Assembly (NCBI GenBank): GCA_019683805.1
Contig: JADGHQ010000004.1
Span: 1-64,000 of the forward strand
DNA: 64,000 bases
Reading direction: 5' to 3'
Source of the DNA: Thermoleophilaceae bacterium
GTDB taxonomy: Bacteria; Actinomycetota; Thermoleophilia; Solirubrobacterales; Thermoleophilaceae
Made by a program: the position numbers and the translations under genes
In this document: positions 1 to 41,304 of the stretch, one piece after another
Numbering within the stretch: position 1 is the first letter of the stretch
How the letters are laid out: every line of letters begins with the position of its first letter
The notes under the pieces: model-generated
Databases searched by the model: none
What the model was told of the DNA's origin: nothing
What the model saw: the letters and a program-made list of their open reading frames with translations, nothing else

Positions 1-354
1 GGCGTGGAAGAGGAGGTTCTCGCGCGCGGAGAGCTCCCTGTAGAGGAGCGGATCGTGCCCCAGGAGGCCCACCCGTCCGCGCACCCTCCAGGCGTCGCGG
101 GGGAGCTCTGCGCCGAGCACGCGCACCGAGCCCTCGTGCGGCCGCAGCAGCGTCGCGAGCACCCGCAGCAGCGTCGTCTTCCCGGCGCCGTTCGCGCCGA
201 AGACGCCCAGCGTCGCGCCCTCGGGCAGCGTGAACGTCACGCCCGCGAGCGCGGTCCGCTCCCCGTAGCGGCGCACGAGGCCGGACACCTCCACGGCGGC
301 CGGCCGCGCAGGCGCGGCGGGCGCGGCGAGAGCCGGCATCGGGGCGTCACTCAC
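1..354 (-). CDS. ABC transporter ATP-binding protein (partial, 3' end outside window)
   Basis: This is the N-terminal part of an ABC ATPase; it runs off the left edge of the window. A Walker A motif of the form GANGAGKTT lies near residue 55, and the text after it (LLRVLATLLRPHEGSVRVLG) is typical of CcmA/DrrA-like export ATPases. The later stretch GHDPLLYRELSARENLLFHA resembles CcmA of cytochrome c biogenesis, but signature and Walker B are not in view, so the substrate is unknown. The chosen start is GTG, whose bases overlap the last 8 bases of moaB, suggesting translational coupling. An in-frame ATG lies five codons downstream. A heme-export role is possible from the family resemblance only. 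Confidence 0.8.
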   Translation of the reverse strand, partial: MSDAPMPALAAPAAPARPAAVEVSGLVRRYGERTALAGVTFTLPEGATLGVFGANGAGKTTLLRVLATLLRPHEGSVRVLGAELPRDAWRVRGRVGLLGHDPLLYRELSARENLLFHA

Positions 355-811
355 GCGCGAGGGTCTCCGCGGCGTGCCGAAGCGTCGGCTCCACCACCGG
401 CCACGACTGGCGCACGCCGCGCGGGGAGCCCGGGAAGTTCACGATCAGCGTGCGGCCGCGAACGCCGGAGACCCCGCGCGTGAGGATCCCGAGCGGCGTG
501 TGGCCGCGCGACTCGGCGCGGATCGCCTCGGCGAAGCCCGGCGCCTCGCGGTCGAGCACGTCGCGCGTCGCCTCGGGCGTGACGTCGTCGAGCGTCAGGC
601 CGGTGCCGCCGGTGGTGAAGATGAACGTCACGCGCTCGACGTCCGCGAGCCGCCTGAGCGCCGCGGCGATCGCCCCGCGATCGTCGCCGACCGTCTCGTG
701 GACGGTCTGGAGGCCCGCCTGCTGGCACAGCTCCACGAGCGCGGGCCCGGACAAGTCTTCGCCCTCGCCGCGCGCGCGCGAGCTCGAGATCGTCACGACT
801 GCCGCACGCAT
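347..811 (-). CDS. moaB: Molybdopterin adenylyltransferase-family protein (MoaB/MogA)
   Basis: The 154-residue protein belongs to the MoaB/MogA family, which adenylylates molybdopterin before metal insertion in molybdenum-cofactor synthesis in the cytosol. The family signature TTGGTG is at residues 66-71, followed by DDVTPEATRD, and the late segment VNFPGSPRGV matches the second part of the nucleotide-binding fold. The length is usual for a stand-alone MoaB. It starts 29 bases after the moaC stop and its end overlaps the next ABC gene, so moaC-moaB-ABC look co-transcribed. Whether it acts as MoaB or MogA cannot be told from sequence alone. Confidence 0.9.
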   Translation of the reverse strand: MRAAVVTISSSRARGEGEDLSGPALVELCQQAGLQTVHETVGDDRGAIAAALRRLADVERVTFIFTTGGTGLTLDDVTPEATRDVLDREAPGFAEAIRAESRGHTPLGILTRGVSGVRGRTLIVNFPGSPRGVRQSWPVVEPTLRHAAETLARE

Positions 812-840
812 GGCCCCGAGGTTATTGGCGCGGCGCCGGG

Positions 841-1329
841 CTAGTCGCCGCCGCGGCGCCAGTCGTGCCGCCCGCCGGCCTTCTCCAGCAGGCGGACCGC
901 CTCGATCTCGACTCCGCGCTCGACGCCCTTGACCATGTCGTAGACCGTGAGCGCGGCGACCGAGGCGGCGGTGAGCGCCTCCATCTCGACCCCGGTCTGG
1001 GCGCTCGTGCGCGCCTCGGCGCGGATCGTGGCGGCGCCCGTCTCGAGGTCGAGGGAGAGGTCGACGTCGACGAAGGTGAGCGGCAGCGGGTGGCAGAGCG
1101 GGATCAGCTCGGCGGTGCGCTTGGCGGCCTGGATGCCCGCGATCCGCGCGGTGGCGAGCACGTCCCCCTTCGGCGCGCGGCCGGCGGCCACGAGCTCCGC
1201 CGTCGCGGGCTTCATGCGCACGCGCGCCTCGGCCAGGGCGCGCCGCTGCGTCGGGGGCTTCCCGCCCACGTCGACCATCCGGGCGCGGCCGCGCTCGTCG
1301 AGGTGCGAGAGCCGCGGCTCGTCCGTCAT
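841..1329 (-). CDS. moaC: Cyclic pyranopterin monophosphate synthase MoaC
   Basis: MoaC converts the MoaA product (3',8-cyclo-GTP) to cyclic pyranopterin monophosphate, the first committed intermediate of molybdenum cofactor. The 162-residue length is standard. Family motifs are clear: LIPLCHPL at about 75-82, [11 protein letters not shown] at about 113-123 and YDMVK at about 129-133, which includes the catalytic lysine. The N-terminal [19 protein letters not shown] is the usual MoaC opening. The ATG lies 10 bases after the stop of the siroheme-type gene, so this is part of a leftward operon with moaB. No moaA is seen in the window. Confidence 0.95.
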
Positions 1330-33642: not shown

Positions 33643-34383
33643 TCAAAAAGTATAGCGGCGGGCCGAGCGCTGCCTGAGCCGCAGCGCCGGCACCTTCCAG
33701 ACCGCCTCCAGGGCGATCCTCGGAGTCATCTTGGACGCCCCGCGCTCGCGCTCGCGGAAGGTGATCGGGACCTCCTCCACGCGGAAGCCCGCCTCGAGCG
33801 CGCGGTAGGTGAGCTCGATCTGGAAGCCGTAGCCGTCGGCGTGGACCGAGTCGAGGTCGAGCCGCTCGAGCACCTCGCGGCGGAAGCACTTGAAGCCGCC
33901 GGTGAGATCCCGCACCGGCACGCCGAGCACGCGGCGCGCGTACCAGCAGCCCCCGCGCGAGAGCAGGCGGCGGTGGAGCGGCCAGTTCTCGACGCGGCCG
34001 CCGTCGCAGTAGCGCGACCCGAGCGCGAGATCGGCGCTCTCGCGCGCCGCCGCCACCAGGCGCGGGACGTCGCGGGGATCGTGCGAGAAGTCGGCGTCCA
34101 TCTCCATCACGTACTCGGCGCCGCCCTCGAGTGCGACGCGGAAGCCCGCGAGGTACGCCCGGCCGAGGCCCTCCTTCGCCGTGCGGTGCAGCACGCGAAC
34201 GTGCTCGCTCTCTGAGGCAAGCCGGTCTGCGATCTCGCCCGTGCCGTCGGGCGAGCCGTCGTCCACCACGAGCACCGTGTGGTCGGCCGAGGCCTCGGCG
34301 AGCCGGGGCAGCAGCGCGCGCACGAACGGCTCGAGGTTCTCGGCCTCGTTGTAGGTGGGCAGGACGAGCCAGACGCCGGGCAT
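33643..34383 (-). CDS. Polyprenol-phosphate mannosyltransferase-like glycosyltransferase (GT2, DPM1-type)
   Basis: A 246-residue GT2 enzyme. The opening GVWLVLPTYNEAENLEPFVR, VVDDGSPDGTGEIAD, the metal motif EMDADFSHDP and the DLTGGFKCFRREVLERLDLD stretch are those of polyprenol monophosphomannose synthase. VPITFRERERGASKM closes the catalytic part. It should transfer mannose (or another hexose) from a nucleotide sugar to a lipid phosphate at the inner face of the membrane. No transmembrane C-terminal domain is present, as in short bacterial forms. Confidence 0.92.
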   Translation of the reverse strand: MPGVWLVLPTYNEAENLEPFVRALLPRLAEASADHTVLVVDDGSPDGTGEIADRLASESEHVRVLHRTAKEGLGRAYLAGFRVALEGGAEYVMEMDADFSHDPRDVPRLVAAARESADLALGSRYCDGGRVENWPLHRRLLSRGGCWYARRVLGVPVRDLTGGFKCFRREVLERLDLDSVHADGYGFQIELTYRALEAGFRVEEVPITFRERERGASKMTPRIALEAVWKVPALRLRQRSARRYTF

Positions 34384-39377: not shown

Positions 39378-40202
39378 CTACGCCGCTCGGCGCGGCCGGA
39401 CGCGGCGGCGCTTCGCGTACAGGGCGGCCACGTCGGCCGCCTCGTGCACGGCGGCGCCGTCGCGACCGTCCTCGGGGAAGACGGCGACGCCCGCGCTCGC
39501 CCCCAGGCCCTCGAGCCCTGCCGCGGCCCTCGCCACCGCCTCCTCGGCGCGCGCGGCCAGCCGCTCCGCGCCCTCGCGGTCTGTCTCCGGCGCGAGCAGG
39601 CAGAACTCGTCGCCTCCCAGGCGGGCGACGGTGTCCTCCTCGCGCACGACGCCGCGCAGGGACGCCGCGACGTCGCGCAGGATCTCGTCGCCCGCCTTGT
39701 GCCCGAAGCGGTCGTTGACGGACTTGAAGCCGTCCATGTCGAGCGCGATGAGCGCGAAGGTGCGGCCCTTGCGCTTGTGGCGCGCCACCTCGTAGGCGAG
39801 GCGCTCCTCGAACGCGCGGCGGTTCGCGAGGCCGGTCAGCGGGTCGCGCAGCGCGGTCGCCCGCAGCGCGGCCTGCTCGCGCTCGAGCCGCGCGCGCATC
39901 GACTCGAGCACTCCCACGCTCGCTGCGACCACGACCGCGAGCAGCGGAAGGGACGGGAGCGAGCCCTCGCCGAGCGCCGACGGCAGCACCGCGGCGAACG
40001 CGGCGGCGGCAGCGCCGCCCCAGGCCTGCCCGCGCGTCCCGGCGGCGCGGGCGAGCAAGAGCGCCGCAGGCACGCACACCGCGGTGGCCTCCCCGCCGCC
40101 CGCGGCGGCCGAGAGCAGCGCCACGAGCGCCGAGACCACGAGCGTCCGCAGGAGCGCGCCCGCGCGCGGCCGGACGGTCGTCTGCGCTCGCTCTGCCGGC
40201 AT
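39378..40202 (-). CDS. Membrane-associated GGDEF diguanylate cyclase
   Basis: A 274-residue protein. Hydrophobic segments at about 20-53 and 60-95 make three or four membrane helices, followed by a short coiled linker. The GGDEF domain runs from about 113: RDPLTGLANRRAFEERLAYE, FALIALDMDGFKSVNDRFGH and ARLGGDEFCLLAP. The active site GGDEF is complete (196-200), and an RxxD inhibitory site (R187-D190) lies 5 residues before it. It should make c-di-GMP from two GTP. ATG at MPAERAQ is chosen; another is 42 bases upstream. Confidence 0.92.
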   Translation of the reverse strand: MPAERAQTTVRPRAGALLRTLVVSALVALLSAAAGGGEATAVCVPAALLLARAAGTRGQAWGGAAAAAFAAVLPSALGEGSLPSLPLLAVVVAASVGVLESMRARLEREQAALRATALRDPLTGLANRRAFEERLAYEVARHKRKGRTFALIALDMDGFKSVNDRFGHKAGDEILRDVAASLRGVVREEDTVARLGGDEFCLLAPETDREGAERLAARAEEAVARAAAGLEGLGASAGVAVFPEDGRDGAAVHEAADVAALYAKRRRVRPRRAA

Positions 40203-40272
40203 GCGCCGAGTCTCGCCGGCGGACCGGATGGGATGGGCACGCATTCACTGGCGCGCACCCGCAGGCGCCGCA

Positions 40273-40365
40273 CGGAGCGGCGAAGGAATCGAACCTTCCA
40301 AGCGCGGGGCTGCCACGCCCTGCCGGTTTTGAGGACCGGATCCGCCACCAGGCGGCTGCCGCTCC
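40273..40365 (-). tRNA. selC: Selenocysteine tRNA (anticodon UCA)
   Basis: On the minus strand an 8-bp acceptor stem (GGAGCGGC/GCCGCTCC), a 5-6-bp D stem (CCGCC...GGCGG), an anticodon stem CCGGT/ACCGG with loop CCTCAAA, a long variable arm, and a T-arm GAAGG-TTCGATT-CCTTC are visible over 93 bases. The anticodon is TCA. These features, 8-bp acceptor and long variable arm, are those of tRNA-Sec. CCA is not encoded. The base before the anticodon is C rather than the usual T. TAGGCT at 40375-40380 could be the promoter -10. Confidence 0.88.
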
Positions 40366-40419: not shown

Positions 40420-41304
40420 CTAGGGCAAGCCGTGCTCGAGCGCGCCCTTCACCCCCGCGTCGAGCGCGTTCAGGCGGTAGAGCGCGAGCGCCTCGGCCGA
40501 GCCGAAGCGCCGCCCAGGCAGCGCCTCGGGCCCGTGGTGGCCGAGCACGCAGTGGACGAGCGCGAGCGCCTTCCCCTCGGGAAGCGCGCGGCCCCGCTCG
40601 GCGATCATCGCCTGGCCGAGCGCGAGGTGGCCGATCAGCCTCCCCTGCTCGCTCAGCTCGATCCCCGCCCCGAGCCTGAACTCGCGCGTCTTGCCGAAGT
40701 CGTGGACGATCGCCGCCGTCAGCAGCAGGTCAGGGTTGAGGCGCGGGTGGAGCGCGCAGGCCTCCTGGGCGAGGGTCGAAACGGCGACGGTGTGCTCGAG
40801 CAGCCCGCCGAGGTAGGCGTGGTGGCCGCCGCGCGTGCACGGCGCGCGCCGCAGCTCCGCCCGGAACTGCGCGTCGTCGAGGAAGGCGTCGAGCAGCCGC
40901 CGATAATCGGGGTCGTGCACCTCGCGGGCGAGGTGCTCGAGGAACCCCTCGAGCTCGTCGAGGTCCCGGTAGGCGACGGGCAGGAACTCGGCGGGGTCGG
41001 CCTCGCCCGGCTCGGCGCGGCGGATGTCGGTGAGCTCGGCCGAGAGCTCGCCCCGGAAGCGCTCGACGCGACCGCTCACCCGCACGAGGTCGCCCCGCTC
41101 GAAGCGGCCCGCCGCGAAGTCGGCGTCGCGGAAGACGCGCGCGGGGAGGGCGCCCGTGCGGTCGCGCAGCTCGACGGCGAGATAGGGCGAGCCGTTGCGC
41201 GCCACGAGCCGGTCCTTGCGCGTGCACGCGAACACGCCGCGCAGCTCCTGCCCGGGCCGCAGCTCGGCGATCGCCCGCCGCGTCTCCTGCGCCGCCGCTT
41301 CCAT
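40420..41304 (-). CDS. yhaM: OB-fold/HD-domain 3'-5' exoribonuclease (YhaM family)
   Basis: A 294-residue protein. The first about 90 residues are an OB fold (ELRDRTGALPARVFRDADFA). The HD domain follows: HHAYLGGLLEHTVAV, with the HD pair in AIVHDFGKTREF, and HCVLGHHGPEALPG. This order is that of YhaM-type 3'-5' exoribonucleases. It should trim RNA or short DNA with metal ions. ATG start; the opposite-strand PAC2 gene begins 78 bases away. Confidence 0.88.
   Translation of the reverse strand: MEAAAQETRRAIAELRPGQELRGVFACTRKDRLVARNGSPYLAVELRDRTGALPARVFRDADFAAGRFERGDLVRVSGRVERFRGELSAELTDIRRAEPGEADPAEFLPVAYRDLDELEGFLEHLAREVHDPDYRRLLDAFLDDAQFRAELRRAPCTRGGHHAYLGGLLEHTVAVSTLAQEACALHPRLNPDLLLTAAIVHDFGKTREFRLGAGIELSEQGRLIGHLALGQAMIAERGRALPEGKALALVHCVLGHHGPEALPGRRFGSAEALALYRLNALDAGVKGALEHGLP

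Follow-up and report, generated by a model that had tools for sequence, protein, structure and literature searches.

A selenocysteine tRNA gene (selC), in which the U at position 33 directly before the anticodon is replaced by C, is located in the window, that is, the whole stretch of 64,000 nucleotides analysed here. U33 is near-invariant in tRNAs, where the U-turn of the anticodon loop depends on it. Judged from the sequences compared here, the gene is very probably the selC of a working bacterial Sec system, in which C33 is a genuine base that this lineage gained on its own and that still permits decoding. The anticodon loop reads C-C-TCA-A-A, and C33 appears as a G on the plus strand. The base before the anticodon had been called unusual by the initial annotation, and this is confirmed, with the qualification that it is a recurrent exception and no one-off.

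ARAGORN calls a tRNA-SeC (tca) over the full length of the gene on the minus strand, a strand that the initial annotation did not name, and the Rfam model RF01852 matches positions 40365–40274 of the same strand with 68.5 bits (E 7e-12; gathering score 47), above the curated cut-off and with the anticodon UCA in place. The fold comprises an acceptor stem of 8 bp, a D stem of 5 bp, an anticodon stem of 5 bp, a variable arm of 8 pairs and a T stem of 5 bp, and 32/32 pairs are standard. In an alignment of 18 related tRNA-Sec, pairing is found in 99.6% of the cells, and all five measures of covariation exceed all 500 shuffles. Furthermore, the D stem contains two G-C to C-G double changes that keep the pairing and that are present in the window's tRNA only, being absent from the relatives in this alignment. 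The intact pairs, the covariation and the compensated D-stem changes thus argue that the gene is no chance match and bears no sign of decay. The earlier reading as a tRNA-Sec with an 8-bp acceptor stem, a long variable arm and the anticodon TCA agrees with ARAGORN, with the Rfam score and with the fold; the feature is a genuine tRNA-Sec and a member of RF01852, and C33 makes it a variant and not a new kind.

In the genome, the tRNA-Sec core pattern has a single match, at this gene. Contig C7 contains another RF01852 match above the cut-off, which ARAGORN calls tRNA-Ser (tga) and which is not a tRNA-Sec. Within the window, an ARAGORN call of tRNA-Gly at 33966–34058 has no Rfam match, carries a non-T base at position 33 and lies inside a glycosyltransferase gene, and was discarded as a false positive.

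Table 1. The selC gene, its key positions and neighbouring or related genes in the window.
Feature	Position	Strand	Basis
selC, selenocysteine tRNA, anticodon UCA	40273..40365	-	ARAGORN; RF01852; pairing and covariation of the stems among relatives
Anticodon UCA, cognate to UGA	40330..40332	-	ARAGORN call; loop sequence
Position 33 of tRNA-Sec, C replacing the near-universal U	40333	-	Loop reading; U33 in relatives
OB-fold and HD-domain protein gene, upstream neighbour of tRNA-Sec	40420..41304	-	Pfam
GGDEF protein gene, downstream neighbour of tRNA-Sec	39378..40244	-	Pfam
moaB-like (347-811) and moaC (841-1329), molybdenum cofactor synthesis	347..1329	-	Supporting context only

Homologues of the OB-fold and HD-domain gene are present in the tRNA-Sec loci of 9–10 relatives, which marks this gene order as old; nothing ties the GGDEF gene, as assigned by Pfam, to Sec. 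Between 47.8 and 62 kb, the window contains parB, parA, gidB, the gene of a 60-kDa inner membrane protein, dnaA, dnaN, a recF-like gene, dciA, gyrB and gyrA, with dnaA approximately 12.5 kb from the tRNA-Sec, which bears out the initial description of the region as oriC-adjacent, although this neighbourhood has no evident bearing on the tRNA. The moaB-like and moaC genes, once held to fit a molybdenum enzyme carrying Sec, are present and consistent with such an enzyme, but molybdenum cofactor genes are common and by themselves therefore say little about Sec.

The remaining Sec-decoding genes are likewise present in the genome, a draft of 2.56 Mb in 134 contigs that is 95% complete. The selA, selB and selD genes are open and exceed their curated cut-offs, with 512, 310 and 381 bits, respectively. 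selA and selB lie on the same strand with a 4-base overlap and apparently form one operon. With selC, all four are brought together in one genome, and the gene set of the Sec trait is complete. Selenoproteins were searched for in the formate dehydrogenase (FDH) family only, via the molybdopterin domain and with stops read through. Among the molybdopterin oxidoreductases, one gene possesses a single in-frame TGA; when read through, it matches NF041513, the model of the actinobacterial formate dehydrogenase, with 1858 bits (cut-off 1400), and the FdhA frame is otherwise intact over approximately 1060 residues. The TGA is situated in the motif NQARI-U-HSSTV, and in the alignment with E. coli FdnG (PDB 1kqf) it falls on that protein's Sec (X). 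A predicted SECIS-like hairpin, GGTCCCC-GGTCT-GGGGACC, follows 11 bases past the fdhA TGA, and a hairpin after the FDH TGA is likewise predicted in two Nocardioides genomes with C33.

The initial annotation had proposed that the organism decodes UGA as Sec and had named selA, selB, selD and a Sec-containing fdhA as the genes to look for; the three sel genes and one such fdhA, whose TGA occupies the Sec position, are present and uphold that proposal. At the level of genes, Sec decoding appears complete. Sec decoding by itself is known biology, and neither this tRNA nor the Sec trait is out of the ordinary in this respect. The annotation's warning that gene models may be cut short at TGA applies foremost to fdhA: models of this genome that stop at UGA are too short, fdhA first.

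It is hardly credible that the tRNA gene is decaying and that C33 marks a lost Sec decoding. Such a loss would agree with the near-invariance of U33, the mutation of which reportedly lowers decoding (PMC3664417). It would also agree with the finding that the RNA model is not fully matched in 10 of 31 family genomes, from which the trait may have disappeared. Yet all stems of the window's tRNA are intact with compensated changes, selA, selB and selD are open, the FdhA frame runs otherwise uninterrupted and has the TGA where Sec is expected, and C33 persists through the Nocardioidaceae together with selA and FDH. A selA match exists in 50/50 C33 genomes tested, 49 of them over the cut-off and one a fragment near a contig end. 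FDH is matched in 45 C33 genomes, and in 42 of these a TGA lies inside the FDH piece, a count that includes one genome (G602) in which the TGA is far from the Sec site; in the window's FDH and in four other C33 FDHs that were read, it is located at the NQARI motif. By pattern search, the C33 tRNA is the sole matched tRNA-Sec in 23 of the 25 C33 genomes checked, and the same holds in the Nocardioidaceae with C33, among them the two complete isolate chromosomes L065 and L132. Since the pattern finds no second tRNA-Sec, C33 has no spare copy in those 23.

Some individual genomes depart from this arrangement. In Marmoricola sp. RYN_217, which carries C33, the FDH piece (G630:C80:16833-19514) has an in-frame TAG and no TGA; it starts at model position 175 and may be truncated or damaged. 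In Hafnia alvei GB001 (L101, NZ_FMIQ01000081.1), a second tRNA-Sec with C33 is located at 443-502, directly upstream of a second selA, and the genome also possesses an E. coli-like tRNA-Sec with U33. The open reading frames beside this C33 tRNA may resemble glycine/betaine reductase proteins, and the tRNA with its selA gives the impression of a distinct Sec system that may have been acquired. In the deltaproteobacterium SKS1.bin83 (L056, G584), there are two tRNA-Sec matches, one with U33 and one with C33, the latter without an ARAGORN call.

Among the relatives of the window's organism, U33 is found in all 29 from which a tRNA-Sec was extracted. Within its own family, 19 of the 20 matched tRNA-Sec have U33, and C33 occurs only in the window's. 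In a sample of the phylum, C33 is present in 3/151 genomes with a match, namely the window's genome, one with the tRNA of Dermacoccus abyssi and one with that of an uncultured actinobacterium. The window thereby falls within the Actinomycetota, but not in the class to which Dermacoccus belongs. Across 84,980 species genomes, the scan returned 85 C33 stretches, 70 of which are called tRNA-Sec by ARAGORN; the strict sequence pattern behind these counts overlooks deviating tRNA-Sec of the U33 and C33 classes alike. C33 tRNA-Sec are thereby found in approximately 70 other species of many phyla, with the Nocardioidaceae as the majority (Nocardioides, Mumia and Marmoricola), and the tRNA of Georgenia is nearly the same. 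The scattered cases comprise Streptomyces, Mycobacterium gastri, Olsenella, Limosilactobacillus, Desulfovibrio, Acidipila, Hafnia alvei, Caulobacter, Rhodanobacteraceae and Steroidobacteraceae, and one each of a spirochaete, an armatimonad, a gemmatimonad and a verrucomicrobium. In a sample of the Nocardioidaceae, 59 of the 68 matched tRNA-Sec contain C33. On these genomes, C33 is a recurrent and evidently tolerated exception to the U33 rule, nearly fixed in the Nocardioidaceae.

Two other accounts of the C33 hits were rejected. Misread tRNA-Leu(CAA) would need a stem register that never fits in a two-register comparison; in the Sec register, the true C33 hits have all 5 bp of the stem, and the remaining hits are chance. 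A tie between C33 and a particular 31:39 pair was likewise set aside: the U-A pair is present in nearly all C33 tRNAs, yet it is also the commonest pair among those with U33, and kinship confounds the comparison.

Only 9 edits separate the tRNA-Sec of the window from the closest U33 relative, against 27 for the closest C33 counterpart, so C33 was acquired independently here. The C33 tRNAs of Dermacoccus and M. gastri are also closer to U33 tRNAs than to other C33 tRNAs; with the window's, each is nearer to the U33 class. By these edit distances, C33 arose repeatedly, several times at a minimum. In the Nocardioidaceae, one tRNA-Sec (G654, L182) has U33 on a backbone that differs by only 3–5 edits from numerous C33 tRNAs in this family; its U33 may be a reversion, the ancestral state or an error, and it is treated as a candidate reversion.

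A sequencing or binning error in the draft, concealing an ordinary U33 tRNA-Sec, would fit a base without parallel in the window's family and a genome in 134 contigs. Such an error is very unlikely, for C33 recurs in the approximately 70 other species, and the same tRNA carries the lineage-specific compensated changes of the D stem, which mark a diverged lineage and not a noisy copy. Since two of the C33 genomes (L065, L132) are complete isolate chromosomes, a draft artefact offers no general explanation of C33, although a small probability of it persists for the single base in the window.

With C33 taken as a real base of a working selC, decoding would follow the established bacterial chain of SerRS, SelA with SelD, and SelB with SECIS (PMC13188914). 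SerRS would charge the tRNA-Sec with serine, SelA and the selenophosphate from SelD would convert the Ser-tRNA to Sec-tRNA, and SelB would deliver the latter to the fdhA UGA. SelB and the SECIS hairpin may position the tRNA-Sec beyond what the codon–anticodon loop alone achieves, and only one or few codons per genome would need this tRNA, which would relax the constraint on its loop. C33 is thus most likely tolerated because SelB and SECIS keep the complex in place on the codon and because this tRNA serves so few codons. Some cost is nevertheless to be expected, since mutation of position 33 is reported to degrade translation efficiency in yeast (PMC3664417). Relaxed constraint alone leaves the near-fixation in the Nocardioidaceae, unlike other families, unexplained.

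Two further explanations bear on this near-fixation. Some other organisms are known to edit C to U in their tRNA, and a deaminase that edits C33 to U33 after transcription, so that the mature tRNA obeys the rule, would have this precedent and would account for the fixation of a costly base. It is highly improbable, as C33 has many independent origins in different phyla, each of which would need the enzyme. Alternatively, C33 could be an adaptation that tunes UGA recoding, with less off-target reading of UGA/UGG or an altered competition with release factor 2. The near-fixation in the Nocardioidaceae (59/68), the repeated independent origins and the almost complete lack of reversions, with G654 as the one candidate, speak for it; the rarity elsewhere (3/151 in the phylum sample) and the occurrence in single species of most groups also fit a neutral or mildly harmful change that is tolerated. 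We regard adaptation as rather unlikely. It would imply that C33 is selected and has evolved repeatedly where SelB delivery permits it, and that tRNA-Sec is an elongator that regularly breaks the U33 rule in bacteria, and this broader claim is held with the same doubt.

The literature searched yielded no description of C33 or U33C for a bacterial tRNA-Sec; since this search covered open-access sources only and public genomes have contained such sequences for a long time, C33 may be noted elsewhere. As C33 occurs in the only matched tRNA-Sec of a family and has separate origins, it provides natural material on how far SelB and SECIS relieve the constraints on the anticodon loop. Meanwhile, it advises caution with tRNA annotation rules that require U33.

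Compared with other bacterial tRNA-Sec of RF01852, the window's tRNA shares the 8-bp acceptor stem, the 5-bp T stem, the long variable arm and the anticodon UCA, and differs in having C33 instead of U33. The missing U33 is a mark of nearly all tRNAs and does not define tRNA-Sec; because approximately 70 other tRNA-Sec share C33, in genomes with selA, it does not bar membership. With the C33 tRNA-Sec of the Nocardioidaceae and the scattered species, the loop CCTCAAA and the anticodon are held in common, as is the status of sole matched tRNA-Sec in most genomes, but at least 27 edits separate them from the window's tRNA, against 9 for its U33 relative, and indicate a separate origin. In the case of the enzyme, the fdhA TGA lies opposite Sec in E. 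coli FdnG (PDB 1kqf), whereas the FdhA of this genome belongs to the actinobacterial model NF041513. In eukaryotes, U33 is reported to be 100% conserved in 553 tRNA-Sec (PMC5330540). The eukaryotic initiator tRNA-Met naturally contains C33 (PMC9023262), but it is an initiator, unlike tRNA-Sec, which is an elongator delivered by SelB. The tRNA-Ser(CAG) of Candida albicans contains G33 (PMC4695839) and resembles the tRNA described here in that an exception at position 33 is tied to unusual decoding, but it has a purine at this position, serves the reassignment of a sense codon and belongs to a eukaryote.
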